This document shows, piece by piece, positions 14,145 through 59,065 of a DNA stretch of 64,000 bases. Every line of letters starts with the position of its first letter. The stretch's first letter is position 1. A program made the position numbers and the translations under genes. The DNA is from Sipunculus nudus. Its lineage: Eukaryota > Annelida > Sipuncula > Golfingiida > Sipunculidae. The stretch covers positions 1,316,019 through 1,380,018 of the forward strand of contig CM049306.1 of NCBI GenBank assembly GCA_026874595.1. The letters are read 5' to 3'. The notes beneath the pieces are model-generated. The model was not told where the DNA came from. It did no database searches and saw nothing but the letters and a program-made list of their open reading frames with translations.

Positions 14145-14204
14145 ACAGAAGATAAAGAATTTGACTTTAAGATCCAATCAGCTGAATCTAGGAGAGCAGT
14201 TCAG
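14145..14204 (+). CDS. Predicted exon 3 (60 bp, phase 0-0)
   Basis: The acceptor is AATCCTTTCAG ending at 14144 and the donor is CAG/GTAAAT at 14205. The phase-0 translation is TEDKEFDFKIQSAESRRAVQ, a charged 20-residue segment. One other frame is also open, but only phase 0 matches both neighbours. The last 13 bases and the donor are copied seven more times downstream in the 52-bp array, so this exon end appears to be the founder of that repeat. Confidence 0.65.
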
Positions 14205-14582
14205 GTAAATACCATTAAATACCACAAAACATAAAAGATTTGGGAGAGCAGTTCAGGTAAATACCATACAATTCCACTAAACATTAAAGTTCTAGGGGAG
14301 CAGTTCAGGTAAATATAAAAGAAATAACACAAAACATTAAAGATCTGGGAGAGCAGTTCAGGTAAATACCATTAAATACCACAAAACATTAAAGATCTGG
14401 GAGAGCAGTTCAGGTAAATACCATTAAATACCACAAAACATTAAAGATGCGGGAGAGCAGTTCAAGTTAATACCATAAAATACCACAAAGATATAAGATC
14501 TAGGACTGCAGTTAAGGTAAATATCATAAAATACCACAAAATATGAAAGATTTAGGAGAGCAGTTCAGATAAATACCATAAA
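14192..14582 (+). repeat. 52-bp array made from the end of exon 3 and its donor, about 8 copies
   Basis: Each unit has GAGAGCAGTTCAG/GTAAAT followed by ACCATTAAATACCACAAAAC and a short linker. The first copy is the true exon-3 end; the exon-derived part recurs ending near 14256, 14308, 14361, 14413, 14464, 14516 and 14568. Most copies keep an intact CAG/GTAAAT donor; later ones have decayed (CAAGTTAA, AAGGTAAA, CAGATAAA). It is an intronic amplification of an exon-intron boundary. Confidence 0.85.
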
Positions 14583-14589
14583 AACCGGA

Positions 14590-15108: not shown

Positions 15109-17734
15109 AGCTCAGCTGACTATAAGTCATCTGAGCTATAGTCGTGGTCCATTGTCCGTCGTCCGTCCGTCTGTCCGTCCGTCCGTCCGTCCGTAGATGT
15201 GGCACGTTTTGAAACCGTAAGACCTAGGAATCCAAAATTCGGCATAATGTTAGATGTCCCCAAGATCTCCTACCAAGCCGAAAACTGGGTCTTTGCAACT
15301 TCGTTCCTTTGAGAAATTAAGGAAAAACCTCAATTTTTTATTAAAAACCTATTTTCACACTTCAGGACTGCCTAATATCAAAACCACTGATCTGTTTTTC
15401 CTCATATTTACCATAAATATTCCTCTATATAGTTCCTATGTACATGCCAGAAATTATGTCTGTATTATTTAATTTAAAAAAGTTATGGGCCCAAACATAA
15501 TGCATTTTGTAAAAAATCAGGAAAGATATTTGATCACTTAACACAAAAAATGTTAAAGCTTTCGACCTTTTTTCCAGTAATACATCTTTAGTTAATCAAA
15601 ATTAAATTGTATACCCAAAATTAGATGAAAATCTTTTAAATTTTCTAAAATATTAATAAAAATAAAAAATTGGTACCTTAAATTTTGCCCAACTTTGACC
15701 ATGGCACGTTTTTTTCCTGTAAGTACTGTGGATTTAATTTTCACAGCATGTTTTTGTTAGCATTTCAACTGTTAACACCAAAAATTTGAAACCAGTTGAT
15801 CAAAAACTGTAGATTAAATTCAAGTTTTCAAGCACCATGTAACATATTGTTTACATCAAGCTAGTGTTATGCAGTTTGCAAGAGCTCAGCTCCCCAGCTT
15901 CAGCTCTTAGTTCCTTAAATTCGGCATACAGTTAGATGTCTCCAAAATCCCCTACCATGCCAAGAATTTGGTCACTAGGACTTAATACCTTCGAGATATT
16001 AATGAAAAACTTCATTTTTCCATTAAAAACCCATTGTTACACTTCAAGACTGCCTAATATCAAAACCACTGATCTGACTTTAATTATAAATAATATACAT
16101 ATTTTTCATTCTCTATGCACATGCCAGAATGATGTCAGTATTGCGTAATTGTTTTAAGTTATGGGCCCAAACATAATGCACTTTGTAAAAAATCAAGAAA
16201 TATATTTACTCCCTTAACAAGGGCATTGCTGAAGCTAGAGATTTTTTTTGTCAGGGATGTAACATTATTTAATCAAGATTCAATTGAATACCCAAAATTA
16301 GTTCTGAATTTTTCAAATTTTATAAGTTATTAGTATAAATATAAAATTAGTACCTTAAATTTTGCCCAACTGTGACCATGGCATGTTTGTGTCCTGTGAG
16401 CACTGTTGATATAATTTTCATATCATGCACACATTAGGATTTCAGTTTTTTCAGTTTAGAAAGCTGAAAGAAATTGGCCAAAAATTGTAGCTTTTATTAA
16501 TGTTTTTAATGAGACCCTGTCAGACTTTGGCTCTCGCCAACCCCTCTTGAGTCACCTGTATGTTGACCTTGTTGACCTTTCATCAAATTATGCACGCTTG
16601 AGGCGAGGCATACAGGATTCCAGGCAGCTTATGGCCAGCCACAGTTGATCCAGGTGTCCATCCCAACTCATCTAGTAGTTTTAACCAACAACATAACAAT
16701 AAACAATAAATTAATAAATTTTTATTAGTTTTTAATAACAAATTAAAGAAAAATAGAAAAGGAATTTGTTAGTTTATAATAACAGGAAATTAACTTGCAG
16801 TTACTGATGATATAAGAATCTTGTATCGATGGGTAGAATGTCACATATTCCAAATAACACCATGCAGTCACCTATGGCATTTTTCAGTTCAATTTTAATG
16901 ATAAAGAAGTAAATCATATTATTCATTACTAATCATTAGGGATCATATGAAGGAAATTAATAATAGACAAAGATGCAGTTGATAATATTAATCTAGATTC
17001 CTACTGTGTCTAGTGTGTACATTGATGTGAAATTAGTCCAAAATAAATTTTTTACAGTTATTTTTTAATATAAATAAAAGCCATAAAACTAGGTACTTAT
17101 GATCATTATTTAAATGTGTGAATTTTGTATATTCTGGATTCTCAACATCATTGGTTGGTGAAACTGAATAAATACCAGACATGGTGCAAATACTTTGTAA
17201 TTGTATTTAAATACAAATATGATTATGTACTCCATTATAAAATTTCTTGCATAAAGAATAGGAATTCAGGTAAAAATGAAAGTATATGAATACTTGTGCA
17301 AATACTTTCAAAATGTATTCATGAATGCATTCATGAATATATTCTTTAATATTATTTTAATAATCATATCAGTTATATTTCATTTTAAAAAATCATATGA
17401 TTCTCTTATTATTTTTTATAAAAATTATATTTGGGACAATATTTGTAATTTTTTTTAATAAATAGTTAAACTCTTATATTATATGTTCTGCTTATAAGTT
17501 ATATGGCCAAGTCAAAATCTGTGTGACAATAGTACTCCATTTGTTAATAAAATGAATGAAATCAATCCTCTTCCCTGTCTTCAAAGGTACTATCAAAATC
17601 ATACATAAGCTAAACAACAACAACTCATAATACAGCTTATATTTATTACCACACAAAACCAGCATGTGCCTCATTTCTAAATAATATTTTTTATCATATA
17701 TAACAGCTGAGCGTCGTGACCCATAGGTCCCTTG
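15109..17734 (+). mobile_element. Family-A Helentron/HINE-like element, copy A1 (2,626 bp)
   Basis: The element begins AGCTCAGCTGAC and ends GACCCATAGGTCCCTTG; it is flanked by TT on both sides, and the surrounding 45-bp array shows the empty site. The 5' end is a palindrome: AGCTCAG pairs with CTGAGCT and TGACT with AGTCA. A GTCC-type tetranucleotide run follows at 15154-15194. Inside are two imperfect direct copies of a roughly 680-bp module (from 15236 and from 15918), then about 1.1 kb of AT-rich tail with a 22-bp perfect palindrome at 17317-17338. GCTCAGCTG near the 5' end recurs inverted (CAGCTGAGC) about 25 bases inside the 3' end. No protein of its own is encoded. The architecture fits non-autonomous Helentrons (TT targets, subterminal inverted repeats, 3' hairpin). 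Confidence 0.8.
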
Positions 17735-19722
17735 TTTATTGCAGTATCATCTAGGACACTTCTGGTACCTCTCTACTTTTTGATTACAGTATCATCTAGG
17801 ACACTTCTGGTACCTCTCTACTTTTTGATTGCAGTATCATCTAGGACACTTCTGGTACCTCTCTACTTTTTTATTGCAGTATCATCTAGGACACTTCTGG
17901 TACCTCTCTGCTTTTGGGTTGCAGTCTCATCTAGAACACTTCTGGTACCTCTCTGCTTTTTTATTGCAGTATCATCCAGAACACTTCTGGTACCTTTCTG
18001 CTTTTTTTATTGCAGTATCATCTAGAACACTTCTGGTACCTCTCTACTTTTTTATTACAGTATCATCTAGGACACTTTTGGTACCTCTCTGCTTTTTGTT
18101 TGCAGTATCATCCAGAACACTTCTGGTACCTCTCTGCTTTTTTATTGCAGTATCATCTAGGACACTTCTGGTACCTCTCTGCTTTTTGGTTGTGGTATCA
18201 TCCAGAACACTTCTGGTATCCCTCTGCTTTTGGGTTGCAGTATCATCTAGAACACTTCTGGTACCTCTCTGCTTTTTTATTGCAGTATCATCTTGGACAC
18301 TTCTGGTACCTCTCTGCTTTTTGGTTGTGGTATCATCCAGAACACTTCTGGTATCCCTCTGCTTTTGGGTTGCAGTCTAATCTAGAACACTTTTGGTACC
18401 TCTCTGCTTTTTTATTGCAGTATCATCCAGAACACTTCTGGTACCTCTCTGCTTTTTTATTGCAGTATCATCTAGGAAACTTCTGGTACCTCTCTACTTT
18501 TTGATTACAGTATCATCTAGGACACTTCTGGTACCTCTCTGCTTTTTGTTTGCAGTATCATCTAGAACACTTCTGGTACCTCTCTACTTTTTTTATTACA
18601 GTATCATCTAGGACACTTCTGGTACCTCTCTGCTTTTTGTTTGCAGTATCATCCAGAACACTTCTGGTACCTCTCTGCTTTTTTATTGCAGTATCATCTA
18701 GGACACTTCTGGTACCTCTCTGCTTTTTGGTTGTGGTATCATCCAGAACACTTCTGGTATCCCTCTGCTTTTGGGTTGCAGTATCATCTAGAACACTTCT
18801 GGTACCTCTCTGCTTTTTTATTGCAGTATCATCTAGGACACTTCTGGTACCTCTCTGCTTTTTTATTGCAGTATCGTCTAGAACACTTCTGGTACCTCTC
18901 TGCTTTTTTATTGCAGTATCATCTTGGACACTTCTGGTACCTCTCTGCTTTTTTATTGCAGTATCATCTAGAACACTTCTGGAACCCCTCTACTTTTTGA
19001 TTACAGTTTCATCTAGGACACTTCTGGTACCTCTCTGCTTTTTTATTGCAGTATCATCTAGGACACTTCTGGTACCTCTCTGCTTTTTTATTGCAGTGTC
19101 ATCTAGGACACTTCTGGTACCTCTCTATATTTTGATTACAGTATCATCTAGGACACTTCTGGTACCTCTCTGCTTTTTGTTTGCAGTATCATCCAGAACA
19201 CTTCTGGTATCCCTCTGCTTTTTGGTTGCAGTCTCATCTAGGACACTTCTGGTACCTCTCTGCTTTTTTATTGCAGTATCATCCAGAACACTTCTGGTAC
19301 CTCTCTGCTTTTTGTTTGCAGTATCATCTAGGACACTTCTGGTACCTCTCTGCTTTTTTATTGCAGTGTCATCTAGGACACTTCTGGTACCTCTCTGCTT
19401 TTTTATTGCAGTATCATCTAGAACACTTCTGGTACCTCTCTACTTTTTGATTACAGTATCATCTAGGACACTTCTGGTACCTCTCTGCTTTTTTTTTGCA
19501 GTATCATCCAGAACACTTCTGGTATCCCTCTGCTTTTTGGTTGCAGTCTCATCTAGGACACTTCTGGTACCTCTCTGCTTTTTTATTGCAGTATCATCCA
19601 GAACACTTCTGGTACCTCTCTGCTTTTTGTTTGCAGTATCATCCAGAACACTTCTGGTATCCCTCTGCTTTTGGGTTGCAGTATCATCTAGGACACTTCT
19701 GGTACCTCTCTGCTTTTTTATT
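17735..19722 (+). repeat. 45-bp minisatellite, middle segment
   Basis: About 44 regular units between the two family-A insertions. The unit is GCAGTATCATCTAGGACACT, TCTGGTACCTCTCTGCTTTT, TTATT (45 bp, 15 codons), so all units stay in one frame and give repeated SSRTLLVPLCFFIAV-type translations. Variants at three or four positions define subtypes. Confidence 0.95.
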
Positions 19723-22337
19723 AGCTCAGCTGACTATAAGTCATCTGAGCTATAGTCGTGGTCAATTGTCCGTCGTCCGTCCATCTGTCCGTCCGTCCGT
19801 CCGTACGTCCGTAGATGTGGCACGTTTTGAAACCGTAAGACCTAGGAATCCAAAATCGGCATAATGTTAGATGTCCCAAAGATCTCCTACCAAGCTGAAA
19901 ACTGGGTCTTTTCGACTTCGTTCCTTTGAGAAATTAAGGAAAAACCTCAATTTTTTATTAAAAACCTATTTTCACACTTCAGGACTGCCTAATATCAAAA
20001 CTACTCATCTGTTTTTCCTCATATTTACCATAAATATTCCTCTTTATTGTTCCTATGTACATTTAAGAAATTATGTCAGTATTATATAATTTCAAAAAGT
20101 TATGGACCCAAACATAATCCATTTTGTAAAAAATCAGGAAAGATATTTGATTACTTAACACAAAACATGTTAAAGCTATGGACCTTTTTTCCAGTAATAT
20201 AACTTTAATTAATCAAAATTAAATTGTATACCCAAAATTAGATGAAAATCTTTTAAATTTTTTAAAATATTAATAAAAATAAAAAATTGGTACCTTAAAT
20301 TTTGCCCAACTTTGACCATGGCACGTTTTTTTCCTGTAAGTACTGTGGATTTAATTTTCACAGCATGTTTTTGCTATCTTTTCAACTGTTAACACCAAAA
20401 ATTTGAAACCAGTTGATCAAAAACTGTAGATTTTATTCAGGTTTTCAAGCACCATGTAACATATTTTTTACATCAAGCTAGTGTTATGCAGTTTGCAAGA
20501 GCTCAGCTCCCCAGCTTCAGCTCTTAGTTCCTTAAATTCAGCATACAGCTAGATGTCTCCAAAATCCCCTACCATGCCAAGAATTTGGTCACTAGGACTT
20601 AATACCTTCAAGATATTATTGAAAAACTTCATTTTTCCATTAAAAACCCATTGTTACACTTCAAGACTGCCTACTATCAAAACCACTGATCTGACTTTAA
20701 TCATAAATAATATACATATTTTTCATTCTCTATGCACATGCCAGAATGATGTCAGTATTGCATAATTGTTTAAAGTTATGGGCCCAAACATAATGCACTT
20801 TGTAAAAAATCAAGAAATATATTTACTCCCTTAACAAGGGCATTGCTGAAACTAGAGATTTTTTGTCAGGGATGTAACATTATTTAATCAAGATTCAATT
20901 GAATACCCAAAATTAGTTCTGAATTTTTCAAATTTTATAAGTTAATATTATAAATGTAAAATTAGTAACTTAAATTTTGCCCAACTTTGACCATGGCACG
21001 TTTGTTTCCTGTGAGCACTGTTGATATAATTTTCATATCATGCACACATAAGGATTTCAGCTTTTAAGTTTAGAAAGCTGAAAGATATTGGCAAAAATTG
21101 TAGCTTTTATTAATGTTTTTATGAGACCCTGTCAGACTTTGGCTCTCTCAAGCCCCTCTTGAGTCACCTGTATGTTGACCTTGTTGAACTTTCAGCAAAT
21201 TATGCATGCTTGAGGCGAGGCATACACAGGAATCCAGGCAGCTTATGGCCAGCCACAGTTGATCCAGGTGTCCAACCCAACTCATCTAGTAGTTTTAACC
21301 AACTACATAACAATAAACAATAAATTAATTTTAAAAAAATTAAAAAAATTAAAGAAAAATAGAAAAGGAATTTGTTAGTTTATAATAACAGGAAATTAAC
21401 TTGCAGTTACTGATGATATAAGAATCTTGTATCGATGGATAGAATGTCACGTATTCCAAATAACAACATGCAGTCACCTATGGTATTTTTCAGTTCAATT
21501 TTAATGATAAAGAAGTAAATCATATCATTTATTACTAATCATTAGGGATCATATGATGGAAATTAATGATAGACAAAGATGCAGTTGATAATATTAATCT
21601 AGATTCCAACTGTGTCTAGTGTGTACATTGATGTGAAATTAGTCCAAAATGAATTTATTACAGTTTTTTTTTAATATAAATAAAAGCCATAAAACCAGGT
21701 ACTTGTGATCATTATTTAAATGTGTGAATTTTGTATATTCTGGATTCTCAACATCATTGTTTGGTGAAAACTGAATAAATACCAGACATGGTGGGATTAC
21801 TTTGTAATTGTATTTAAATACAAATATGATTATGTACTCCATTATAAAACTCTTGCATAAAGAATGGGAATTCAGGTAAAAATGAAAGTATATGAATACC
21901 AGTGCAAATACTTTCAAAATGTATTCATGAATGCATTCATGAATATATTCTTTAATATTATTTTAATAATTATTTCAGTTACATTTCATTTTAAAAAATC
22001 ATATGATTCTCTTATTATTTTTAATAAAAATTTTATTTGGAACAATATTTGTAATTTTTTTTTAATTAATAGTTAAACCCTTATATATTCTGCTTATAAG
22101 TTATATGGCAAAGTCAAAATCTGTGTGACAATAGTACTCCATTTGTCAATAAAATAAATGAAATCAATCCTCTTCCCTGTCTCCAAAGGTACCATCAAAA
22201 TCATACATAAGCTAAACAACAACAACTCATAATACAGCTTATATTTATTACCACACAAAACCAGCAAGTGCCTCATTTCTAAATAATATTTTTTAATCAT
22301 ATATAACAGCTGAGCGTCATGACCCATAGGTCCCTTG
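19723..22337 (+). mobile_element. Family-A Helentron/HINE-like element, copy A2 (2,615 bp)
   Basis: A near-identical copy of A1, co-linear from end to end with scattered substitutions and small indels. It starts AGCTCAGCTGAC at 19723 and ends GACCCATAGGTCCCTTG at 22337, again flanked by TT. It keeps the tetranucleotide run (19768-19812), the two internal modules and the 22-bp palindrome (21923-21944). It entered the 45-bp unit at a different position from A1 (after the ATT of CTTTTTTATT rather than within the T run), so it is a separate insertion and not a copy made by array expansion. Confidence 0.8.
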
Positions 22338-25300
22338 TTGCAGTATCATCCAGAACACTTCTGGTACCTCTCTGCTTTTTGTTTGCAGTATCATTCTAAA
22401 CACTTCTGGTATCCCTCTGCTTTTGGGTTGCAGTCTCATCTAGGACACTTCTGGTACCTCTCTGCTTTTTTATTGCAGTATCATCCAGAACACTTCTGGT
22501 ACCTCTCTGCTTTTTTATTGCAGTATCATCCAGAACACTTCTTGTACCTCTCTACTTTTTTATTACAGTATCATCTAGGACACTTCTGGTACCTCTCTGC
22601 TTTTTTATTGCAGTATCATCTAGAACACTTCTGGTACCTCTCTGCTTTTTTATTGCAGTATCATCTAGAACACTTCTGGTACCTCTCTACTTTTTTATTG
22701 CAGTATCATCCAGAACACTTCTTGTACCTCTCTACTTTTTTATTACAGTATCATCTAGGACACTTCTGGTACCTCTCTGCTTTTTTATTGCAGTATCATC
22801 TAGAACACTTCTGGTACCTCTCTGCTTTTTTATTGCAGTATCATCTAGAACACTTCTGGTACCTCTCTAATTTTTTATTGCAGTATCATCCAGAACACTT
22901 CTGGTACCATTCTGCTTTTTTATTGCAGTCTCATCTAGGACACTTCTGGTACCTCTCTGCTTTTTGGTTGTGGTATCATCCAGAACACTTCTGGTACCTC
23001 TCTACTTTTTGATTACAGTATCATCTAGGACACTTCTGGTACCTCTCTGCTTTTTGTTTGCAGTATCATCCAGAACACTTCTGGTACCTCTCTGCTTTTT
23101 TATTGCAGTCTCATCTAGGACACTTCTGGTACCTCTCTGCTTTTTGGTTGTGGTATCATCCAGAACACTTCTGGTACCTCTCTACTTTTTGATTACAGTA
23201 TCATCTAGGACACTTCTGGTACCTCTCTGCTTTTTGTTTGCAGTATCATCCAGAACACTGCTGGTACCTCTCTGCTTTTTGTTTGCAGTATCATCCAGAA
23301 CACTTCTGGTACCTCTCTGCTTTTTGTTTGCAGTATCATCCAGAACACTTCTGGTACCTCTCTACTTTATGATTACAGTATCATCTAGGACACTTCTGGT
23401 ACCTCTCTACTTTTTGATTGCAGTATCATCCAGAACACTTCTGGTACCTCTCTGCTTTTTGTTTGCAGTATCATCCAGAACACTTCTGGTACCTCTCTGC
23501 TTTTTTATTGCAGTATCATCCAGAACACTTCTGGTACCTCTCTGCTTTTTGTTTGCAGTATCATCCAGAACACTTCTGGTACCTCTCTACTTTTGGATTA
23601 CAGTATCATCTAGGACACTTCTGGTACCTCTCTGCTTTTTGTTTGCAGTATCATCCAGAACACTTCTGCTACCTCTCTGCTTTTTTATTGCGGTCTCATC
23701 TAGGACACTTCTGGTACCTCTCTGCTTTTTGGTTGTGGTATCATCCAGAACACTTCGGGTACCTCTCTACTTTTTGATTACAGTATCATCTAGGACACTT
23801 CTGGTACCTCTCTGCTTTTTGTTTGCAGTATCATCCAGAACACTTCTGGTACCTCTCTACTTTTTGATTACAGTATCATCTAGGACACTTCTGGTACCTC
23901 TCTGCTTTTTGTTTGCAGTATCATCCAGAACACTTCTGGTACCTCTATGCTTTTTGTTTGCAGTATCATCCAGAACACTTCTGGTACCTCTCTACTTTTT
24001 GATTACAGTATCATCTAGGACACTTCTGGTACCTCTCTGCTTTTTGTTTGCAGTATCATCCAGAACACTTCTGGTACCTCTCTGCTTTTTTATTGCGGTC
24101 TCATCTAGGACACTTCTGGTACCTCTCTGCTTTTTGGTTGTGGTATCATCCAGAACACTTCTGGTACCTCTCTACTTTTTGATTACAGTATCATCTAGGA
24201 CACTTCTGGTACCTCTCTGCTTTTTGTTTGCAGTATCATCCAGAACACTTCTGGTACCTCTCTGCTTTTTGTTTGCAGTATCATCCAGAACACTTCTGGT
24301 ACCTCTCTACTTTTTGATTACAGTATCATCTAGGACACTTCTGGTACCTCTCTGCTTTTTGTTTGCAGTATCATCCAGAACACTTCTGGTGCCTCTCTGC
24401 TTTTTTATTGCGGTCTCATCTAGGACACTTCTGGTACCTCTCTGCTTTTTGGTTGTGGTATCATCCAGAACACTTCTGGTACCTCTCTACTTTTTGATTA
24501 CAGTATCATCTAGGACACTTCTGGTACCTCTCTGCTTTTTGTTTGCAGTATCATCCAGAACACTGCTGGTACCTCTCTGCTTTTTGTTTGCAGTATCATC
24601 CAGAACACTTCTGGTACCTCTCTACTTTTTGATTACAGTATCATCTAGGACACTTCTGGTACCTCTCTACTTTTTGATTACAGTATCATCTAGGACACTT
24701 CTGGTACCTCTCTGCTTTTTGTTTGCAGTATCATCCAGAACACTTCTGGTATCCCTCTGCTTTTGGGTTGCAGTATCATCTAGGACACTTCTGGTACCTC
24801 TCTGCTTTTTTATTGCAGTATCATCCAGAACACTTCTGGTACCTCTCTGCTTTTTGTTTGCAGTATCATCCAGAACCCTTCTGGTATCCCTCTGCTTTTG
24901 GGTTTCAGTATCATCTAGGACACTTCTGGTACCTCTCTGCTTTTTTATTGCAGTATCATCCAGAACACTTCTGGTACCTCTCTGCTTTTTGTTTGCAGTA
25001 TCATCCAGAACACTTCTGGTATCCCTCTGCTTTTGGGTTGCAGTCTCATCTAGGACACTTCTGGTACCTCTCTGCTTTTTTATTGCAGTATCATCCAGAA
25101 CACTTCTGGTACCTCTCTGCTTTTTTATTGCAGTATCATCCAGAACACTTCTGGTACCTCTCTGCTTTTTTATTACAGTATCATCTAGGACACTTCTGGT
25201 ACCTCTCTGCTTTTTTATTGCAGTATCATCTAGGACACTTCTGGTACCTCTCTGCTTTTTGGTTGTGGTATCATCCAGAACACTTCTGGTACCTCTCTGC

Positions 25301-27800
25301 TTTTTTATTGCAGTCTCATCTAGGACACTTCTGGTACCTCTCTGCTTTTATATTGCAGTATCATCTAGAACACTTCTGGTACCTGTCTGCTTTTTTATTG
25401 CAGTATCATCTAGAACACTTCTGGTACCTCTCTACTTTTTTATTGCAGTATCATCTAAAACACTTCTGGTACCTCTCTACATTTTTATTACAGTATCATC
25501 TAGGACACTTCTGGTACCTCTCTGCTTTTTGTTTGCAGTATCATCTAGAACACTTCTGGTACCATTCTGCTTTTTTATTGCAGTCTCATCTAGGACACTT
25601 CTGGTACCTCTCTGCTTTTTGGTTGTGGTATCATCCAGAACACTTCTGGTATCCCTCTGCTTTTGGGTTGCAGTATCATCTAGAACACTTCTGGTACCTC
25701 TCTAATTTTTTATTGCAGTATCATCTAGGACACTTCTGGTATCCCTCTGCTTTTTGTTTGCAGTATCATCCAGAACACTTCTGGTACCTCTCTGTTTTTT
25801 AATTGCAGTATCATCTAGGACACTTCTGGTACCTCTCTGCTTTTTTATTGCAGTATCATCTAGAACTCTTCTGGTACCTCTCTACATTTTTATTACAGTA
25901 TCATCTAGGACACTTCTGGTACCTCTCTGCTTTTTGTTTGCAGTATCATCCAGAACACTTCTGGTACCATTCTGCTTTTTTATTGCAGTCTCATCTAGGA
26001 CACTTCTGGTACCTCTCTGCTTTTTGGTTGTGGTATCATCCAGAACACTTCTGGTATCCCTCTGCTTTTGGGTTGCAGTATCATCTAGAACACTTCTGGT
26101 ACCTCTCTACTTTTTTATTGCAGTATCATCTAGGACACTTCTGGTATCCCTCTGCTTTTTGTTTGCAGTATCATCCTGAACACTTCTGGTACCTCTCTGC
26201 TTTTTTATTGCAGTATCATCTAGGACACTTCTGGTACCTCTCTACTTTTTTATTGCAGTATCATCTAGAACACTTCTGGTATCCCTCTGCTTTTCGGTTG
26301 CAGTCTCATCTAGGACACTTCTGGTATCTCTCTGCTTTTTTTATTGCAGTATCATCCAGAACACTTCTGGTACCTCTCTGCTTTTTTATTGCAGTATCAT
26401 CCAGAACACTTCTAGTACCTCTCTGCTTTTTTATTGCAGTATCATCTAGAACACTTCTGGTACCTCTCTACTTTTTTATTGCAGTATCATCTAGAACACT
26501 TCTGGTACCTCTCTACTTTTTTATTACAGTATCATCTAGGACACTTCTGGTACCTCTCTGCTTTTTGTTTGCAGTATCATCTAGGACACTTCTGGTACCT
26601 CTCTGCTTTTTTATTACAGTATCATCTTGGACACTTCTGGTACCTCTCTACTTTTTGATTACAGTATCATCTTGGACACTTCTGGTACCTCTCTGCTTTT
26701 TTATTACAGTATCATCTTGGACACTTCTGGTACCTCTCTGCTTTTTTTATTACAGTATCATCTTGGACACTTCTGGTACCTCTCTACTTTTTTATTACAG
26801 TATCATCTTGGACACTTCTGGTACCTCTCTACTTTTTTGTTACAGTATCATCTAGGACACTTCTGGTACCTCTCTGCTTTTTGTTTGCAGTATCATCCAG
26901 AACACTTCTGGTACCTCTCTGCTTTTTTATTACAGTATCATCTAGGACACTTCTGGTACCTCTCTGCTTTTTGTTTGCAGTATCATCCAGAACACTTCTG
27001 GTACCTCTCTGCTTTTTTATTGCAGTATCATCTAGGACACTTCTGGTACCTCTCTGCTTTTTGGTTGTGGTATCATCCAGAACACTTCTGGTACCTCTCT
27101 GCTTTTTTATTGCAGTATCATCTAGAACACTTCTGGTACCTCTCTACTTTTTGATTACAGTATCATCTAGGACACTTCTGGTACCTCTCTGCTTTTTTAT
27201 TACAGTATCATCTTGGACACTTCTGGTACCTCTCTACTTTTTGATTACAGTATCATCTTGGACACTTCTGGTACCTCTCTACTTTTTGATTACAGTATCA
27301 TCTTGGACACTTCTGGTACCTCTCTACTTTTTGATTACAGTATCATCTTGGACACTTCTGGTACCTCTCTACTTGTTGATTACAGTATCATCTTGGACAC
27401 TTCTGGTACCTCTCTACTTTTTTATTACAGTATCATCTTGGACACTTCTGGTACCTCTCTACTTTTTTATTACAGTATCATCTTGGACACTTCTGGTACC
27501 TCTCTACTTTTTTATTACAGTATCATCTAGGACACTTCTGGTACCTCTCTGCTTTTTTATTTCAGTATCATCTTGGACACTTCTGGTACCTCTCTACTTT
27601 TTGATTACAGTATCATCTTGGACACTTCTGGTACCTCTCTGCTTTTTTATTGCAGTATCATCTAGGACACTTCTGGTACCTCTCTACTTTTTGATTGCAG
27701 TATCATCTAGGACACTTCTGGTACCTCTCTGCTTTTTGGTTGTGGTATCATCCAGAACACTTCTGGTATCCCTCTGCTTTTGGGTTGCAGTCTCATCTAG
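22338..27800 (+). repeat. 45-bp minisatellite, main segment
   Basis: About 120 units. The period is a multiple of three, so a 913-codon frame (22964-25705) and several others appear; they are repetitive, hydrophobic and lack conserved features, and I do not call them genes. Each unit contains a strong acceptor-like stretch (CTCTCTGCTTTTTTATTGCAG with variants) and a weak GTACCT. Subtypes occur in blocks: TTGTGGT units recur every few units from 22960 to 24470, and TCTTGGACACT units cluster at 26620-27640. The right edge decays after 27790, with TTACAAGATCATCTTAGGGC echoing the left edge. Confidence 0.95.
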
Positions 27801-28021
27801 AACTCTTATAATACTTCTCTGTATATGGGTTACAAGATCATCTTAGGGCCTGCTAACCATGACCTTTACACATTTTTCCAATTGTTTGCACTTAAGAGCT
27901 CAGGTCATTAATGAATACCTTCAGAATGCATCAGACCACAACAGAGGTATCGACCAATGGAACTCTTGGTTTGACAGATAGATATTTTATTATTTGTTTT
28001 GTTCTGATCGCTTACTTTCAG
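27801..28021 (+). other. Array exit and distal intron 3
   Basis: A decayed array edge to about 27860, then about 160 bases of unique sequence leading to the exon-4 acceptor. Nothing else was recognised. Confidence 0.5.
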
Positions 28022-28088
28022 GTAGGACAGCAAGACATACCTGTTGGGTGTGAAGTTGGTGAACCTGTGTTGGTGACAACTGATCCAG
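28022..28088 (+). CDS. Predicted exon 4 (67 bp, phase 0-1)
   Basis: The acceptor CTTACTTTCAG ends at 28021 and the donor CAG/GTTTGT starts at 28089; the donor is weaker than the others. In phase 0 it reads VGQQDIPVGCEVGEPV followed by LVTTDP, with a trailing G that forms a glycine codon with the next exon. Phase 1 hits a TGA. It lies about 220 bases after the end of the 45-bp array. Confidence 0.6.
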
Positions 28089-35311: not shown

Positions 35312-35374
35312 GTCAAAGTGAAGCATTAACAGCTGCGGAGGCAGAGTGGGATGCTGTGCAAACAATAACTCCAG
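35312..35374 (+). CDS. Predicted exon 5 (63 bp, phase 1-1)
   Basis: The acceptor has a good pyrimidine tract (TTTTATTTTACTTTACAG ending at 35311) and the donor CAG/GTAGGT is close to consensus. In phase 1 it encodes a shared glycine, then QSEALTAAEAEWDAVQTITP and a trailing G. It is Ala/Glu-rich. It begins about 100 bases after the 3' end of a family-A element remnant (end 35209). This is one of the best-supported exons. Confidence 0.7.
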
Positions 35375-36146
35375 GTAGGTCAAGGTCATTGTTCAAAAAG
35401 ACGTCATTAATTGACCTAACCATAAACTCTGTGTGACCTTATTCGCTTATATATACAATTAATAATCATGATCAGAGCAGTTGCAAGCAACCAATCAAGT
35501 TACTGTTGGCAGTGTAAACAGTCAATCACCTGACAAGCATGAATTTTGCATAATTTGGGCTACTCTCCCAAACAGAACAAATGTAGTCCACACCAGTAAC
35601 CCTTTGCACCTGTTCTTCATGGATATTTTCTATACAAAGGAGAGAGTATGAATAGGTCTGGGCCAAAGGTTGCAGGAGCTAATCCCCGCCTGAATAATAA
35701 TGTCGTACCTTACATAGAATTCATATGAGACAATCCAAAATATGGCAAAATACTTCACAATGATTGTTATATATTCATCAATGGAGAACAGAGATAAAGC
35801 AATTCCAGCTGATGATGTCAGTCAAGGCAACATCATACGAGACCTGTCTTGTCAATGACTTTTTTGGGATGTCACTATTGTACTATAAACAGGTCTTGCA
35901 ACCATTGACTTGGAAAGCCTTCTACTTGGGGTATTCTGGGGGCATTTTAGCATAATTAAGTCAAAGGGGCTGAGCATAAGTGCTCATTTTCCTCCCATTT
36001 TCTTCAAGTCAGGGGGTGAAAACAATAAAAAAGTATCTCACATCAGGTAGTTCAGGTAGGTGTACATGCAGGCATGTGTGTGTGCATATGTGGATGTGTG
36101 TGTATGTTGTGGTGTCTAAGACTGTCACTGGAATGTGAGGGAAACA
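35375..36146 (+). other. Intron 5 proximal part, unique
   Basis: About 770 bases of mixed unique sequence with a short TGTGTGTG-rich patch near 36075. A 63-codon frame at 35764-35955 has no supporting splice or start signal. No gene was recognised. Confidence 0.5.
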
Positions 36147-37572: not shown

Positions 37573-37602
37573 GGGTACAGTCACCTGAGGGACTAAAAGC
37601 AG
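37573..37602 (+). CDS. Predicted microexon 6 (30 bp, phase 1-1)
   Basis: The acceptor GACATTTCCACAG ends at 37572 and the donor CAG/GTAATG starts at 37603. The phase-1 translation is a shared glycine, VQSPEGLKA and a trailing G. A 30-base symmetric exon could be skipped or included without changing frame. It sits about 140 bases after the 16-bp array. Confidence 0.6.
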
Positions 37603-48092: not shown

Positions 48093-48098
48093 TTATAC

Positions 48099-51000
48099 CT
48101 GCCTATCAGTTGTTCTTTCACTGAATCAGATCAAGGCCTGCCAATCAGTTGTTATTTCACTGAATCAGATCTAGGCCTGCCAATCAGTTGTTATTTCACT
48201 GAATCAGATCTAGGCCTGCCAATCAGTTGTTATTTCACTGAATCAGATCAAGGCCTGCCAATCAGTTGTTATTTCACTGAATCAGATCAAGGCCTGCCAA
48301 TCAGTTGTTATTTCACTGAATCAGATCTAGGCCTGCCAATCAGTTGTTATTTCACTGAATCAGATCTAGGCCTGCCAATCAGTTGTTATTTCACTGAATC
48401 AGATCAAGGCCTGCCAATCAGTTGTAATTTCACTGAATCAGATCTAGGCCTGCCAATCAGTTGTTATTTCACTGAATCAGATCTAGGCCTGCCAATCAGT
48501 TGTTATTTCACTGAATCAGATCTAGGCCTGCCAATCAGTTGTTATTTCACTGAATCAGATCAAGGCCTGCCAATCAGTTGTAATTTCACTGAATCAGATC
48601 AAGGCCTGCCAATCAGTTGTTATTTCACTGAATCAGATCAAGGCCTGCCAATCAGTTGTTATTTCACTGAATCAGATCTAGGCCTGCCAATCAGTTGTTA
48701 TTTCACTGAATCAGATCTAGGCCTGCCAATCAGTTGTATTTTCACTGAATCAGATCTAGGCCTGCCAATCAGTTGTTATTTCACTGAATCAGATCTAGGC
48801 CTGCCAATCAGTTGTTATTTCACTGAATCAGATCAAGGCCTGCCAATCAGTTGTTATTTCACTGAATCAGATCTAGGCCTGCCAATCAGTTGTTATTTCA
48901 CTGAATCAGATCTAGGCCTGCCAATCAGTTGTTATTTCACTGAATCAGATCTAGGCCTGCCAATCAGTTGTTATTTCACTGAATCAGATCTAGGCCTGCC
49001 AATCAGTTGTTATTTCACTGAATCAGATCAAGGCCTGCCAATCAGTTGTTATTTCACTGAATCAGATCAAGGCCTGCCAATCAGTTGTTATTTCACTGAA
49101 TCAGATCTAGGCCTGCCAATCAGTTGTTATTTCACTGAATCAGATCAAGGCCTGCCAATCAGTTGTAATTTCACTGAATCAGATCTAGGCCTGCCAATCA
49201 GTTGTTATTTCACTGAATCAGATCTAGGCCTGCCAATCCGTTGTTATTTCACTGAATCAGATCTAGGCCTGCCAATCAGTTGTTATTTCACTGAATCAGA
49301 TCTAGGCCTGCCAATCAGTTGTTATTTCACTGAATCAGATCAAGGCCTGCCAATCAGTTGTTATTTCACTGAATCAGATCTAGGCCTGCCAATCAGTTGT
49401 TATTTCACTGAATCAGATCTAGGGCTGCCAATCAGTTGTTATTTCACTGAATCAGATCTAGCCCTGCCAATCAGTTGTTATTTCACTGAATCAGATCAAG
49501 GCCTGCCAATCAGTTGTTATTTCACTGAATCAGATCTAGGCCTGCCAATCAGTTGTAATTTCACTGAATCAGATCTAGGCCTGCCAATCAGTTGTAATTT
49601 CACTGAATCAGATCTAGGCCTGCCAATCAGTTGTAATTTCACTGAATCAGATCTAGGCCTGCCAATCAGTTGTTATTTCACTGAATCAGATCATGGCCTG
49701 CCAATCAGTTGTTATTTCACTGAATCAGATCTAGGCCTGCCAATCAGTTGTTATTTCACTGAATCAGATCTAGGCCTGCCAATCAGTTGTTATTTCACTG
49801 AATCAGATTTAGGCCTGCCAATCAGTTGTTATTTCACTGAATCAGATCAAGGCCTGCCAATCAGTTGTTATTTCACTGAATCAGATCTAGGCCTGCCAAT
49901 CAGTTGTTATTTCACTGAATCAGATCTAGGCCTGCCAATCAGTTGTTATTTCACTGAATCAGATCTAGGCCTGCCAATCAGTTGTTATTTCACTGAATCA
50001 GATCTAGGCCTGCCAATCAGTTGTTATTTCACTGAATCAGATCAAGGCCTGCCAATCAGTTGTTATTTCACTGAATCAGATCTAGGCCTGCCAATCAGTT
50101 GTTATTTCACTGAATCAGATCAAGGCCTGCCAATCAGTTGTTATTTCACTGAATCAGATCAAGGCCTGCCAATCAGTTGTTATTTCACTGAATCAGATCA
50201 AGGCCTGCCAATCAGTTGTTATTTCACTGAATCAGATCTAGGCCTGCCAATCAGTTGTTATTTCACTGAATCAGATCTAGGCCTGCCAATCAGTTGTTAT
50301 TTCACTGAATCAGATCTAGGCCTGCCAATCAGTTGTATTTTCACTGAATCAGATCAAGGCCTGCCAATCAGTTGTTATTTCACTGAATCAGATCAAGGCC
50401 TGCCAATCAGTTGTTATTTCACTGAATCAGATCAAGGCCTGCCAATCAGTTGTTATTTCACTGAATCAGATCTAGGCCTGCCAATCAGTTGTTATTTCAC
50501 TGAATCAGATCTAGGCCTGCCAATCAGTTGTTATTTCACTGAATCAGATCTAGGCCTGCCAATCAGTTGTTATTTCACTGAATCAGATCTAGGCCTGCCA
50601 ATCAGTTGTTATTTCACTGAATCAGATCTAGGCCTGCCAATCAGTTGTTATTTCACTGAATCAGATCTAGGCCTGCCAATCAGTTGTTATTTCACTGAAT
50701 CAGATCTAGGCCTGCCAATCAGTTGTTATTTCACTGAATCAGATCTAGGCCTGCCAATCAGTTGTTATTTCACTGAATCAGATCTAGGCCTGCCAATCAG
50801 TTGTTATTTCACTGAATCAGATCTAGGCCTGCCAATCAGTTGTTATTTCACTGAATCAGATCTAGGCCTGCCAATCAGTTGTTATTTCACTGAATCAGAT
50901 CTAGGCCTGCCAATCAGTTGTTATTTCACTGAATCAGATCTAGGCCTGCCAATCAGTTGTTATTTCACTGAATCAGATCTAGGCCTGCCAATCAGTTGTT

Positions 51001-52844
51001 ATTTCACTGAATCAGATCTAGGCCTGCCAATCAGTTGTTATTTCACTGAATCAGATCTAGGCCTGCCAATCAGTTGTAATTTCACTGAATCAGATCTAGG
51101 CCTGCCAATCAGTTGTTATTTCACTGAATCAGATCTAGGCCTGCCAATCAGTTGTAATTTCACTGAATCAGATCTAGGCCTGCCAATCAGTTGTTATTTC
51201 ACTGAATCAGATCTAGGCCTGCCAATCAGTTGTAATTTCACTGAATCAGATCTAGGCCTGCCAATCAGTTGTAATTTCACTGAATCAGATCTAGGCCTGC
51301 CAATCAGTTGTTATTTCACTGAATCAGATCAAGGCCTGCCAATCAGTTGTTATTTCACTGAATCAGATCTAGGCCTGCCAATGAGTTGTTATTTCACTGA
51401 ATCAGATCAAGGCCTGCCAATGAGTTGTTATTTCACTGAATCAGATCAAGGCCTGCCAATGAGTTGTTATTTCACTGAATCAGATCAAGGCCTGCCAATG
51501 AGTTGTTATTTCACTGAATCAGATCAAGGCCTGCCAATGAGTTGTTATTTCACTGAATCAGATCAAGGCCTGCCAATCAGTTGTTATTTCACTGAATCAG
51601 ATCAAGGCCTGCCAATCAGTTGTTATTTCACTGAATCAGATCAAGGCCTGCCAATCAGTTGTTATTTCACTGAATCAGATCAAGGCCTGCCAATCAGTTG
51701 TTATTTCACTGAATCAGGTCTAGGCCTGCCAATCAGTTGTTATTTCACTGAATCAGGTCTAGGCCTGCCAATCAGTTGTTATTTCACTGAATCAGGTCTA
51801 GGCCTGCCAATCAGTTGTTATTTCACTGAATCAGGTCTAGGCCTGCCAATCAGTTGTTATTTCACTGAATCAGGTCTAGGCCTGCCAATCAGTTGTTATT
51901 TCACTGAATCAGGTCTAGGCCTGCCAATCAGTTGTTATTTCACTGAATCAGGTCTAGGCCTGCCAATCAGTTGTTATTTCTCTGAATCAGGTCTAGGGCT
52001 GCCAATCAGTTGTTATTTCACTGAATCAGATCAAGGCCTGCCAATCAGTTGTTATTTCACTGAATCAGATCAAGGCCTGCCAATCAGTTGTTATTTCACT
52101 GAATCAGATCAAGGCCTGCCAATCAGTTGTTATTTCACTGAATCAGATCAAGGCCTGCCAATCAGTTGTAATTTCACTGAATCAGATCTAGGCCTGCCAA
52201 TCCGTTGTTATTTCACTGAATCAGGTCTAGGCCTGCCAATCCGTTGTTATTTCACTGAATCAGGTCTAGGCCTGCCAATCCGTTGTTATTTCACTGAATC
52301 AGATCTAGGCCTGCCAATCCGTTGTTATTTCACTGAATCAGATCAAGGCCTGCCAATCCGTTGTTATTTCACTGAATCAGATCAAGGCCTGCCAATCCGT
52401 TGTTATTTCACTGAATCAGATCAAGGCCTGCCAATCCGTTGTTATTTCACTGAATCAGATCAAGGCCTGCCAATCCGTTGTTATTTCACTGAATCAGATC
52501 AAGGCCTGCCAATCCGTTGTTATTTCACTGAATCAGATCAAGGCCTGCCAATCCGTTGTTATTTCACTGAATCAGATCTAGGCCTGCCAATCCGTTGTTA
52601 TTTCACTGAATCAGATCAAGGCCTGCCAATCCGTTGTTATTTCACTGAATCAGATCTAGGCCTGCCAATCCGTTGTTATTTCACTGAATCAGATCTAGGC
52701 CTGCCAATCCGTTGTTATTTCACTGAATCAGATCTAGGCCTGCCAATCAGTTGTTATTTCACTGAATCAGATCTATGCGTGCCAATCAGTTGTTATTTCA
52801 CTGAATCAGATCAGGGCCTGCCAATCAGTTGTTATTTACATTAG
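48099..52844 (+). repeat. 39-bp minisatellite, 121 units in exact register
   Basis: The unit reads ISCYFTESDLGLP (13 codons). The start of the unit at 48105, 48144, 51381 and 52824 differs by exact multiples of 39, so there is no net indel over 121 units. One plus-strand frame is open from 48093 to the TAG at 52842-52844 (1,583 codons); the other frames hit stops in nearly every unit. The first ATG in that frame comes from a CAG-to-GAG-type change (ATGAG) at 51381, so no start exists for most of it. Subtypes are blocked: ATGAG at 51380-51540, CAGGTCT at 51716-51995, ATCCG at 52200-52740. I call it an intronic array, not a gene. Confidence 0.95.
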
Positions 52845-53076: not shown

Positions 53077-53162
53077 GTGATGGAGCTGCCCCCTCATCAT
53101 CTCCAGTGTCATTCAGGGAGGCTCTGGATCACTGTAGGACAGCTGACTTAGAGCAGTATAAG
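53077..53162 (+). CDS. Predicted exon 7 (86 bp, phase 1-0)
   Basis: The acceptor ATTATTGTTGTACAG ends at 53076 and the donor AAG/GTATGG starts at 53163. In phase 1 it reads DGAAPSSSPVSFREAL then DHCRTADLEQYK and ends in phase 0; the other two frames contain stops. The Ser/Pro-rich start gives way to a likely helix. The first intronic base is also the first base of the 44-bp array, so the real donor is unit one of that repeat. Confidence 0.65.
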
Positions 53163-56100
53163 GTATGGCCATCTTCTAATACAAACATACATATATAAAT
53201 ACTCAGGTATAACCATCTACTAACACAAACATACATATATAAATACTCAGGTATAGCCATCTACTAACACAAACATACATATATAAATACTCAGGTATAG
53301 CCATCTACTAACACAAACATACATATATAAATACTCAGGTATAGCCATCTACTAACACAAACATACATATATAAATAATCAGGTATAGCCATCTACTAAC
53401 ACAAACATACATATATAAATACTCAGGTATAGCCATCTACTAACACAAACATACATATATAAATACTCAGGTATAGCCATCTACTAACACAAACATACAT
53501 ATATAAATACTCAGGTATAACCATCTACTAACACAAACATACATATATAAATACTCAGGTATAGCCATCTACTAACACAAACATACATATATAAATACTC
53601 AGGTATAGCCATCTACTAACACAAACGTCCATATATAAATACTCAGGTATAGCCATCTACTAACACAAACATACATATATAAATACTCAGGTATAGCCAT
53701 CTACTAACGCAAACATACATATATAAATACTCAGGTATAGCCATCTACTAACGCAAACATACATATATAAATACTCAGGTATAGCCATCTACTAACACAA
53801 ACATACATATATAAATACTCAGGTATAGCCATCTACTAACACAAACATACATATATAAATACTCAGGTATAGCCATCTACTAACACAAACATACATATAT
53901 AAATACTCAGGTATAGCCATCTACTAACACAAACATACATATATAAATACTCAGGTATGGCCATCTACTAAGACAAACATGCATATATAAATACTCAGGT
54001 ATAGCCATCTACTAACACAAACATGCATATATAAATACTCAGGTATAACCATCTACTAACACAAACATGCATATATAAATACTCAGGTATAGCCATCTAC
54101 TAACACAAACATACATATATAAATACTCAGGTATAGCCATCTACTAACACAAACATACATATATAAATACTCAGGTATAGCCATCTACTAACACAAACAT
54201 ACATATATAAATACTCAGGTATAGCCATCTACTAACACAAACATACATATATAAATACTCAGGTATAACCGTCTACTAACACAAACATACATATATAAAT
54301 ACTCAGGTATGGCCATCTACTAACACAAACATGCATATATAAATACTTAGGTATAACCATCTACTAACACAAACATGCATATATAAATACTCAGGTATAA
54401 CCATCTACTAACACAAACATACATATATAAATACTCAGGTATAACCATCTACTAACACAAACATACATATATAAATACTCAGGTATAACCATCTACTAAC
54501 ACAAACATACATATTTTAATACTCAGGTATAGCCATCTACTAACACAAACATACATATATAAATACTCAGGTATAACGATCTACTAACACAAACATACAT
54601 ATATAAATACTCAGGTATAGCCATCTACTAACACAAACATACATATATAAATACTCAGGTATAGCCATCTACTAACACAAACATACATATATAAATACTC
54701 AGGTATAGCCATCTACTAACACAAACATGCATATATAAATACTCAGGTATAGCCATCTACTAACACAAACATGCATATATAAATACTCAGGTATAACCAT
54801 CTACTAACACAAACATACATATATAAATACTCAGGTATAGCCATCTACTAACACAAACATGCATATATAAATACTCAGGTATAGCCATCTACTAACACAA
54901 ACATACGTATATAAATACTCAGGTATAGCCATCTACTAACACAAACATACATATATAAATACTCAGGTATAGCCATCTACTAACACAAACATACATATAT
55001 AAATACTCAGGTATAACCATCTACTAACACAAACATACATATATAAATACTCAGGTATAGCCATCTACTAACACAAACATACATATATAAATACTCAGGT
55101 ATAGCCATCTACTAACACAAACATACATATATAAATACTCAGGTATAGCCATCTACTAACACAAACATACATATATAAATACTCAGGTATAGCCATCTAC
55201 TAACACAAACATATATATATAAATACTCAGGTATAGCCATCTACTAACACAAACATACATATATAAATACTCAGGTATAACCATCTACTAACACAAACAT
55301 ACATATATAAATACTCAGGTATAGCCATCTACCAACACAAACATACATATATAAATACTCAGGTATAGCCATCCTCTAACACAAACATGCATATATAAAT
55401 ACTCAGGTATAACCATCCTCTAACACAAACATGCATATATAAATACTCAGGTATAACCATCTACTAACACAAACATGCATATATAAATACTCAGGTATAG
55501 CCATCTACTAACACAAACATACATATATAAATACTCAGGTATAGCCATCTACTAACACAAACATACATATATAAATACTCAGGTATAGCCATCTACTAAC
55601 ACAAACATACATATATAAATACTCAGGTATAGCCATCTACTAACACAAACATACATATATAAATACTCAGGTATAGCCATCTACTAACACAAACATACAT
55701 ATATAAATACTCAGGTATAGCCATCTACTAACACAAACATACATATATAAATACTCAGGTATAGCCATCTACTAACACAAACATACATATATAAATACTC
55801 AGGTATAGCCATCTACTAACACAAACATACATATATAAATACTCAGGTATAACCATCTACTAACACAAACATGCATATATAAATACTCAGGTATAACCAT
55901 CTACTAACACAAACATGCATATATAAATACTCAGGTATAACCATCTACTAACACAAACATGCATATATAAATACTCAGGTATAGCCATCTACTAACACAA
56001 ACATACATATATAAATACTCAGGTATAACCATCTACTAACACAAACATACATATATAAATACTCAGGTATAACCATCTACTAACACAAACATACATATAT

Positions 56101-58979
56101 AAATACTCAGGTATAGCCATCTACTAACACAAACATACATATATAAATACTCAGGTATAGCCATCTACTAACACAAACATACATATATAAATACTCAGGT
56201 ATAGCCATCTACTAACACAAACATACATATATAAATACTCAGGTATAACCATCTACTAACACAAACATACATATATAAATACTCAGGTATAGCCATCTAC
56301 TAACACAAACATGCATATATAAATACTCAGGTATAGCCATCTACTAACACAAACATACATATATAAATACTCAGGTATAGCCATCTACTAACACAAACAT
56401 ACATATATAAATACTCAGGTATAGCCATCTACTAACACAAACATACATATCTAAATACTCAGGTATAGCCATCTACTAACACAAACATACATATATAAAT
56501 ACTCAGGTATAACCATCTACTAACACAAACATACATATATAAATACTCAGGTATAACCATCTACTAACACAAACATACATATATAAATACTCAGGTATAA
56601 CCATCTACTAACACAAACATGCATATATAAATACTCAGGTATAGCCATCTACTAACACAAACATACATATATAAATACTCAGGTATAACCATCTACTAAC
56701 ACAAACATACATATATAAATACTCAGGTATAGCCATCTACTAACACAAACATACATATATAAATACTCAGGTATAGCCATCTACTAACACAAACATACAT
56801 ATATAAATACTCAGGTATAACCATCTACTAACACAAACATACATATATAAATACTCAGGTATAGCCATCTACTAACACAAACATACATATATAAATACTC
56901 AGGTATAACCATCTACTAACACAAACATACATATATAAATACTCAGGTATAACCATCTACTAACACAAACATACATATATAAATACTCAGGTATAACCAT
57001 CTACTAACACAAACATACATATATAAATACTCAGGTATAGCCATCTACTACCACAAACATACATATATAAATACTCAGGTATAGCCATCTACTACAACAA
57101 ACATACATATATAAATACTCAGGTATAGCCATCTACTAACACAAACATACATATATAAATACTCAGGTATAACCATCTACTAACACAAACATACATATAT
57201 AAATACTCAGGTATAACCATCTACTAACACAAACATACATATATAAATACTCAGGTATAACCATCTACTAACACAAACATACATATATAAATACTCAGGT
57301 ATAACCATCTACTAACACAAACATACATATATAAATACTCAGGTATAGCCATCTACTAACACAAACATACATATATAAATACTCAGGTATAGCCATCTAC
57401 TAACACAAACATACATATATAAATACTCAGGTATAGCCATCTACTAACACAAACATGCATATATAAATACTCAGGTATAACCATCTACTAACACAAACAT
57501 ACATATATAAATACTCAGGTATAACCATCTACTAACACAAACATACATATATAAATACTCAGGTATAACCATCTACTAACACAAACATACATATATAAAT
57601 ACTCAGGTATAGCCATCTACTAACACAAACATACATATATAAATACTCAGGTATAGCCATCTACTAACACAAACATGCATATATAAATACTCAGGTATAG
57701 CCATCCTCTAACACAAACATGCATATATAAATACTCAGGTATAACCATCTACTAACACAAACATACATATATAAATACTCAGGTATAACCATCTACTAAC
57801 ACAAACATACATATATAAATACTCAGGTATAGCCATCCTCTAACACAAACATGCATATATAAATACTCAGGTATAACTATCTACTAACACAAACATACAT
57901 ATATAAATACTCAGGTATAACCATCTACTAACACAAACATACATATATAAATACTCAGGTGTAGCCATCTACTAACACAAACATACATATATAAATACTC
58001 AGGTATAGCCATCCTCTAACACAAACATGCATATATAAATACTCAGGTATAGCCATCTACTAACACAAACATACATATATAAATACTCAGGTATAGCCAT
58101 CTACTAACACAAACATACATATATAAATACTCAGGTATGTTGGCCATCTACTAACACAAACATACATATATAAATACTCAGGTATAACCATCTACTAACA
58201 CAAACATGCATATATAAATACTCAGGTATAGCCATCTACTAACACAAACATACATATATAAATACTCAGGTATAGCTATCTATTAACACAAACATACATA
58301 TATAAATACTCAGGTATGATGGCCATCTACTAACACAAACATACATATATAAATACTCAGGTATAACCATCTACTAACACAAACATGCATATATAAATAC
58401 TCAGGTATGATGGCCATCTACTAACACAAACATACATATATAAATACTCAGGTATAACCATCTACTAACACAAACATGCATATATAAATACTCAGGTATA
58501 GCCATCTACTAACACAAACATACATATATAAATACTCAGGTATAGCCATCTACTAACACAAACATGCATATATAAATACTCAGGTATAGCCATCTACTAA
58601 CACAAACATATATATATAAATACTCAGGTATAGCCATCTACTAACACAAACATACATATATAAATACTCAGGTATAACCATCTACTAACACAAACATACA
58701 TATATAAATACTCAGGTATAACCATCTACTAACACAAACATACATATATAAATACTCAGGTATAGCCATCTACTAACACAAACATACATATATAAATACT
58801 CAGGTATAACCATCTACTAACACAAACATACATATATAAATTCTCAGGTATAACCATCTACTAACACAAACATACATATATAAATACTCAGGTATAACCA
58901 TCTACTAACACAAACATACATATATAAATACTCATGTATGGCCATCCTCTAACACAAACATACATACATAAATACTTAG
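53163..58979 (+). repeat. 44-bp minisatellite starting at the exon-7 donor, 132 units
   Basis: The unit is GTATAGCCATCTACTAACAC, AAACATACATATATAAATAC, TCAG. The length is 132 x 44 plus 9, and the 9 extra bases are explained by three units with GTATGTTGGCC or GTATGATGGCC (+3 each; near 58136, 58315 and 58407). The array starts exactly at the first intronic base after exon 7. Most units hold a 5' splice-like GTATAG, a perfect TACTAAC branch-point consensus, and CAG directly abutting the next GT. Edge units are the most diverged (TTCTAATAC first, CCTCTAACAC last). Common variants are GTATAACC, CATGCATATA and CCATCCTCTAAC. Confidence 0.95.
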
Positions 58980-59065
58980 GATCATATCCAGAATGAGTTC
59001 TAATCATACCCAGAATGAGATCTGATCATACCCAGATTGAGATCTGATCACACCCAGAATAAGAT
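58980..59065 (+). repeat. 22-bp short repeat, four copies
   Basis: Immediately after the 44-bp array, GATCTGATCATACCCAGAATGA-like units recur four times with changes. It is a small independent array. Confidence 0.75.

Follow-up and report, generated by a model that had tools for sequence, protein, structure and literature searches.

A 44-bp tandem array at a splice donor of an ELMO-domain gene in Sipunculus nudus

The array and its edges

We analysed 64,000 nucleotides of the Sipunculus nudus genome (assembly GCA_026874595.1, contig CM049306.1, positions 1,316,019 to 1,380,018, forward strand), hereafter the window, in which 132 tandem units of about 44 bp follow the splice donor of an exon of an ELMO-domain gene. 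An earlier annotation, the sequence-only reading, had described each unit as a complete mini-intron laid out as a recursive splice site, and had listed as its last option an array merely founded on a donor. That last option is the one favoured by the evidence below. Positions are those of the window, and a slash marks a splice site or a joint between units. The features at the start and end of the array are as follows.

53077..53162, + strand: exon preceding the array, DGAAPSSSPVSFREALDHCRTADLEQYK; phase 1 at its start, phase 0 at its end; called from its open frame, its splice scores and its phase fit with seven other exons
53163..53168, + strand: real donor, AAG/GTATGG; score 10.7, 88th percentile of 131 native donors
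53161..58980, + strand: tandem array, 132 copies of a 44-bp unit (Tandem Repeats Finder and unit walk); majority unit GTATAGCCATCTACTAACACAAACATACATATATAAATACTCAG
53163..53206, + strand: first unit; donor with G at +5, and TTCTAAT where interior units have TACTAAC
58936..58979, + strand: last unit; GTATGG and CTCTAAC, without TACTAAC; then GATCATATCC, its AGG being common to the left edge

Tandem Repeats Finder reported a period of 44 with 132.1 copies and 96% matches at 53161-58980. Cut from the donor, 53163-58979 falls into 132 units arranged head to tail, of which 129 measure 44 nt and three 47 nt, so the reported copy number stands. The units have 29 distinct sequences. All 132 start with GT, but the GTATAG that had been ascribed to every unit is found in only 77; 47 start with GTATAA and eight with something else, and in 125 of the 132 the +5 position of the donor is A instead of G. 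AG ends 131 units (CAG in 129, TAG in two) and the remaining one ends in CAT. TACTAAC is present in 120 units, its branch A always 27 nt ahead of the unit's last base. GT, TACTAAC and CAG occur together in 118 of the 132 units, so the layout claimed for each unit does not extend to all: 12 units, including both edge copies, lack TACTAAC. The abutment of CAG on the next GT likewise holds in large part, with AG/GT at 130 of the 131 joints, the exception being unit 131, which ends in CAT.

The edges differ from the interior. The units run from the donor at 53163, as the sequence-only reading had it, but the array itself takes in the last 2 nt of the exon (AG of AAG/GT), and contiguous identity with the exon goes no further. 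After the last unit comes GA, not GT, so that the base past the array matches a unit start for one base only (G). Both edge units retain GTATGG and neither has TACTAAC; they thus differ from the interior majority at donor +5 and at the branch site. In a search of the 1.43-Gb genome for exact matches only, a 42-nt stretch of the consensus unit had at least 86, those reported all lying inside the array; the pattern is not due to chance, and the unit does not resemble a dispersed element.

The host gene

The other seven exons of the gene are listed below; those downstream of the window are given in window numbering continued.

14145..14204, + strand: first of the eight exons found, TEDKEFDFKIQSAESRRAVQ
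28022..28088, + strand: exon
35312..35374, + strand: exon
37573..37602, + strand: exon
69948-70071: exon, downstream of the window
73426-73548: exon, downstream of the window
76030-76160: exon, downstream of the window

Exons were located by splice scores, frame and eye, and their phases were then checked. The eight phase-compatible exons encode 228 amino acids without a stop and match Pfam ELMO_CED12 with an E value of 3e-23, and a genome search with the ELMO_CED12 family independently located two of the eight. Neither exon 53077-53162 alone nor the early partial chains matched Pfam, and their PDB matches were only weak. Two candidates, 36013-36055 and an exon encoding GVIRPLIYE, were dropped from the chain on phase or frame. 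The analysis itself supports an ELMO domain only; the closest protein is presumably human ELMOD3. Given the open frame of the exon and its phase fit with this chain, the donor at 53162 is real, as had been proposed. The intron after it measures 16,785 nt to the exon start at 69948, with a second possible acceptor 6 nt further on at 69954, and the array fills its first 35%.

Four of the eight exons (28022, 35312, 53077 and 73426) begin with GT after AG, versus 22 of the 133 exons sampled elsewhere in the genome (see below), and five of eight would do so if the acceptor at 69954 is used; such a start resembles that of a recursive exon. Upstream of exon 53077, a 39-bp array at 48098-52837 holds 121 copies that are 98% alike, with a stop-free frame of 1583 codons, and stops about 240 bp ahead of the exon.

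Splice-signal strength of the units

Native splice tables drew on two unrelated protein families, through the 75 myosin-head matches listed and the best 60 of 93 dynein matches, with 430 bp of flank each. These 135 exon loci yielded 131 donors and 133 acceptors; the boundaries were called by iterative scoring within the same sample, so that the percentiles are partly circular, and some calls are doubtful (for example L042, with a 26-nt "exon").

Among the 131 array copies of the donor, 128 score lower than the real donor at 53162 and three outscore it. Unit acceptors have a median score of 4.5, the 9th percentile of native acceptors, and just one of the 132 reaches the native 25th percentile. 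Their pyrimidine fraction is 0.44 versus 0.69 in native acceptors, which bears out the weak pyrimidine tract noted earlier. A smaller table of the 75 myosin exons gave the same order as the 135-exon table (real donor at the 66th percentile, units at the 34th and 21st, acceptors at the 7th). In this smaller table TACTAAC lies near only one of 74 native acceptors.

Spacing within the array is tight. Inside one unit the distance from donor to branch A is 16 nt, and to the branch A of the next unit it is 60 nt. Human constructs are described as having a minimum productive length of 46 nt (PMC11291888, in the passage cited). Compared with that minimum from human constructs, a donor-to-branch distance of 16 nt makes one-unit introns in the array very unlikely; steps spanning two units would in principle be feasible.

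Selection on the layout

For signs of selection on the layout, we compared sites within the array, in 129 of the 132 units (the three 47-nt units were left out). Of the 28 variant types, nine fall on the 11 sites of GT, TACTAAC and AG, and the remaining 33 sites account for 19; the motif sites are not depleted of variants (P for fewer = 0.86). Two sister arrays of the same gene, listed in the next section, gave similar results. In 94 units of the 63-bp donor array (of about 104) parsed without indels, GT and AG at the donor joint are unprotected (P for fewer 0.96), and each AG base of that joint departs from the majority in 10 of the 94; the internal acceptor-like AG is unchanged in all 94, a result short of significance (P 0.27). 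In 20 of the roughly 22 units of the 44-bp acceptor array, AG has one change and no significant protection (P 0.54).

We also drew 20,000 random 44-mers from the non-array part of the window and forced a GT start and a CAG end on them. YTNAY fell in the branch zone in 53%, CTRAY in 8% and TACTAAC in 0.005%. TACTAAC itself is thus unusual by this test, but the motif was chosen after being seen and it is missing from both edges of the array; since the edges lack it, it is probably secondary. Across 52 array units compared, several of them from one array, AGGT occurred in 24 in sense and in nine in antisense, and a correctly placed TACTAAC only in the unit of the 44-bp donor array. The AG/GT joint would be an automatic consequence of founding an array on an AG/GT donor.

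Other arrays at splice boundaries

Tandem arrays lie on further boundaries of the same gene, the last two below being located in L005, downstream of the window.

14186..14583, + strand: 52-bp array, 7.7 copies; units repeat the last ~19 nt of exon 14145-14204 and its donor (14204)
Exon 73426: 41-bp duplication, 1.9 copies, of the acceptor and the first bases of the exon
L005:1099-2057 (window numbering 75099-76057): 44-bp array, ~22 copies, covering the acceptor of exon 76030 and the start of that exon
L005:2146-8690 (window numbering 76146-82690): 63-bp array, ~104 copies, of the end of exon 76030-76160 and its donor (76160)

With the 44-bp donor array included, five of the 16 boundaries found in the gene lie on tandem arrays. 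The 52-bp array at 14186-14583, judged by its units, is clearly a duplicated exon-intron boundary. Among the independently sampled myosin and dynein exons, arrays with a period of at least 20 touch five of 131 donors and three of 133 acceptors, or 8 of 264 boundaries; locus L040, which is touched under one donor call and not under a later one, is excluded from the eight. Near donors, about 4-8% of intron positions lie within arrays, and near acceptors 2.5-6%.

Several other repeats were seen in and around the gene. Both boundaries of exon 76030-76160 are tandemly amplified, and the 63-bp units resemble 28-nt mini-exons between acceptor-like and donor sites, which is arguably more striking than the 44-bp donor array. 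At L004:6300-9318 (window numbering 70300-73318), a 43-bp array at 70300-70695 adjoins 61 copies at 70694-73318 that are, by eye, its reverse complement, giving the minisatellite an internal inverted junction. By eye, the segment at 15194-17731 resembles that at 19812-22338, both being about 2.5 kb long; each ends in CTGAGCGTC(A/G)TGACCCATAGGTCCCTTGTT and is followed by a 45-bp array of one family (17731-19722 and 22338-27821). Among the sampled loci, a muscle myosin gene (G000:C2:44849337-44852248) has four neighbouring matches to one profile stretch (~109-153), as alternative exons would give, and a dynein gene (G000:C6:39308505-39316367) has four separate matches to much the same stretch of its own profile (~82-119), a repeated exon. 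The PDB chains that a muscle myosin exon of the genome matched best are from squid and scallop.

Origin of the array and alternative explanations

The array is probably a minisatellite of the mirage type founded on a splice donor, to which we give a probability of roughly 0.8 on the evidence of its edges, its unit variants and its sister arrays. It is most likely a passive by-product of repeat growth on a splice site, not a machine for stepwise splicing. The founder would have been a 44-bp stretch starting at the donor, with AGG at both ends (exon AG and donor G on the left, TTAG/G on the right); these bounds are proposed because the identity with the exon is AG and the base after the array is G. 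The founder may have been duplicated in tandem, with growth by slippage or unequal exchange. We infer that an internal unit then mutated, at donor +5 from G to A and at the branch site to TACTAAC, and that both changes, having arisen within the array, spread through it. Because donors here are usually AG/GT, each copied donor would carry its own preceding AG, and nearly every joint would come to resemble an acceptor plus a donor without selection for splicing. The entire 16.8-kb intron is most likely removed in one splice, from 53162 to the exon at 69948 or 69954.

Several observations weigh against this account. Unit donors are good: ranked among native donors, their median score of 9.0 falls at the 60th percentile. 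Downstream, the true acceptor is weak, scoring 0.3 at 69948 and 3.5 at 69954 versus the array median of 4.5, and thus sequence scores alone do not show the array acceptors losing. A preprint on recursive splicing in humans describes, in the passage cited, pyrimidine tracts slightly lower in information at the recursive acceptors of nested introns (PMC13105047), which softens the argument from weak acceptors. The unit holds only two exon bases, making it a borderline mirage. Finally, array edges lie within 25 bp of boundaries in 8 of 21 cases where about 3 were expected (P 0.006), which plain random placement does not explain, a count in which some sampled loci overlap and a few arrays contribute an edge to each of two loci. 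Despite this clustering we do not claim a duplication hotspot at splice sites, because 24-mers spanning boundaries are repeated no more often than intronic ones (donors 3/131 versus 23/520; acceptors 2/133 versus 17/523); the evidence for a hotspot is mixed.

The sequence-only reading had stepwise splicing through recursive sites as one of its options. In a workable form, the start of the intron would be removed stepwise through the AG/GT joints, at least two units (88 nt) a step, with the next 44 nt acting as a skipped recursive-splicing exon (RS-exon). The regular joints, the branch-like motif 27 nt ahead of the unit end in most units, the 60 nt separating a donor from the branch A one unit on, donors inside the native range and the weak true acceptor all suit it, as does the further donor 44 nt past each joint, which the RS-exon model requires as described for flies (PMC8605326). 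By the same account, however, the RS-exon is included if the ratchet donor is weakened against the RS-exon's own donor, and the donors of the array are mostly near-identical copies. The unit acceptors are pyrimidine-poor and all but one of the 132 score below the native 25th percentile, native acceptors hardly ever have TACTAAC nearby, and the splice motifs vary no less than the rest of the unit. We consider this explanation improbable. Its fullest statement is slightly less probable again, namely that the spliceosome would take out the initial 5.8 kb of the intron at least two 44-nt units at a time, each unit supplying an acceptor, a regenerated donor and a skipped RS-exon, with copy number tuning intron removal. 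If that were true, splice boundaries on which repeats grow would keep supplying this animal with such ratchets. As for 132 recursive sites at one-unit spacing, as originally described, the 16-nt donor-to-branch distance, the poor acceptors, the unconserved motifs and the edges without TACTAAC speak against them.

The units could instead act through their donors alone. U1 binding guards long introns against premature polyadenylation, and 132 donor-like sites might bind the U1 small nuclear ribonucleoprotein (U1 snRNP) and shield this long intron, or titrate U1. The strength of the unit donors is consistent with such a platform or sponge, and neither AATAAA nor ATTAAA occurs in the array. Against it, the donor sites are no better conserved than the other sites of the unit, and +5 is A, not G, in nearly all units; we regard it as improbable to the same degree as stepwise splicing. 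Import of the unit by a dispersed splice-ready element, an introner or a transposon, would explain why the unit ends resemble splice sites. Introners are similar units at many loci, whereas all 86 exact matches reported here are at the array locus, and this origin, disfavoured on exact matches only, is the least likely of those considered.

A founding on the donor, followed by repeat growth, would mean that an unused array can acquire the full layout of donor, branch site and acceptor. Boundary arrays touch about 3% of the sampled splice boundaries, and copy numbers of 132 and 104 occur within one gene. Such a gene is a natural test of how the spliceosome picks the first donor among more than 100 near-copies, and of how far tandem duplication can supply the material for new introns.

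Comparison with known systems

In Drosophila, ratchet points place AG directly against GT, and the outcome depends on how the ratchet donor competes with that of the RS-exon, according to the part of the study cited (PMC8605326). The 44-bp array is similar in that AG/GT is juxtaposed at 130 of its 131 joints and a further donor follows. It differs in its pyrimidine-poor acceptors, its 44-nt spacing, its near-identical competing donors and the lack of selective motif conservation (nine of the 28 variant types lie on the motifs, which make up 11 of the 44 sites).

Tandem duplication of AGGT segments is described in a review as a genuine route of intron gain (PMC3443670, in the passage cited). 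Here too, a copied AGGT can supply a donor and an acceptor at the joints. Unlike in that route, the array sits in an existing intron beside its donor.

Among the titles and abstract openings listed from the openly licensed literature, we found no splice-boundary minisatellites and no minisatellite-linked recursive splicing outside amphioxus, which is weak evidence of absence. One study reportedly linked intronic minisatellites to alternative splicing in C. elegans (PMC4039745).

The closest parallel is found in amphioxus, whose mirages are exon-intron boundaries duplicated in tandem; the cited parts of two reports describe them in a few genes and without interference with regular splicing (PMC3087553, PMC3902484). 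In one globin mirage, the boundaries of the cluster escape homogenisation (PMC3087553). The S. nudus array spans an exon-intron boundary, with a marginal exon length of 2 nt, and has copied splice signals, a homogenised interior and divergent edges. As in those mirages, tandem units are anchored on a splice boundary, many with AG/GT, both donor and acceptor boundaries are affected and the edge copies stand outside homogenisation. The host is not a cephalochordate. Exon sequence amounts to 2 bases in the 44-bp donor unit and to about 15-28 in the sister arrays of the same gene. Copy number differs as well, with 132 units here versus six and three in two haplotypes of the amphioxus globin gene BflGb6, as given in the same accounts.

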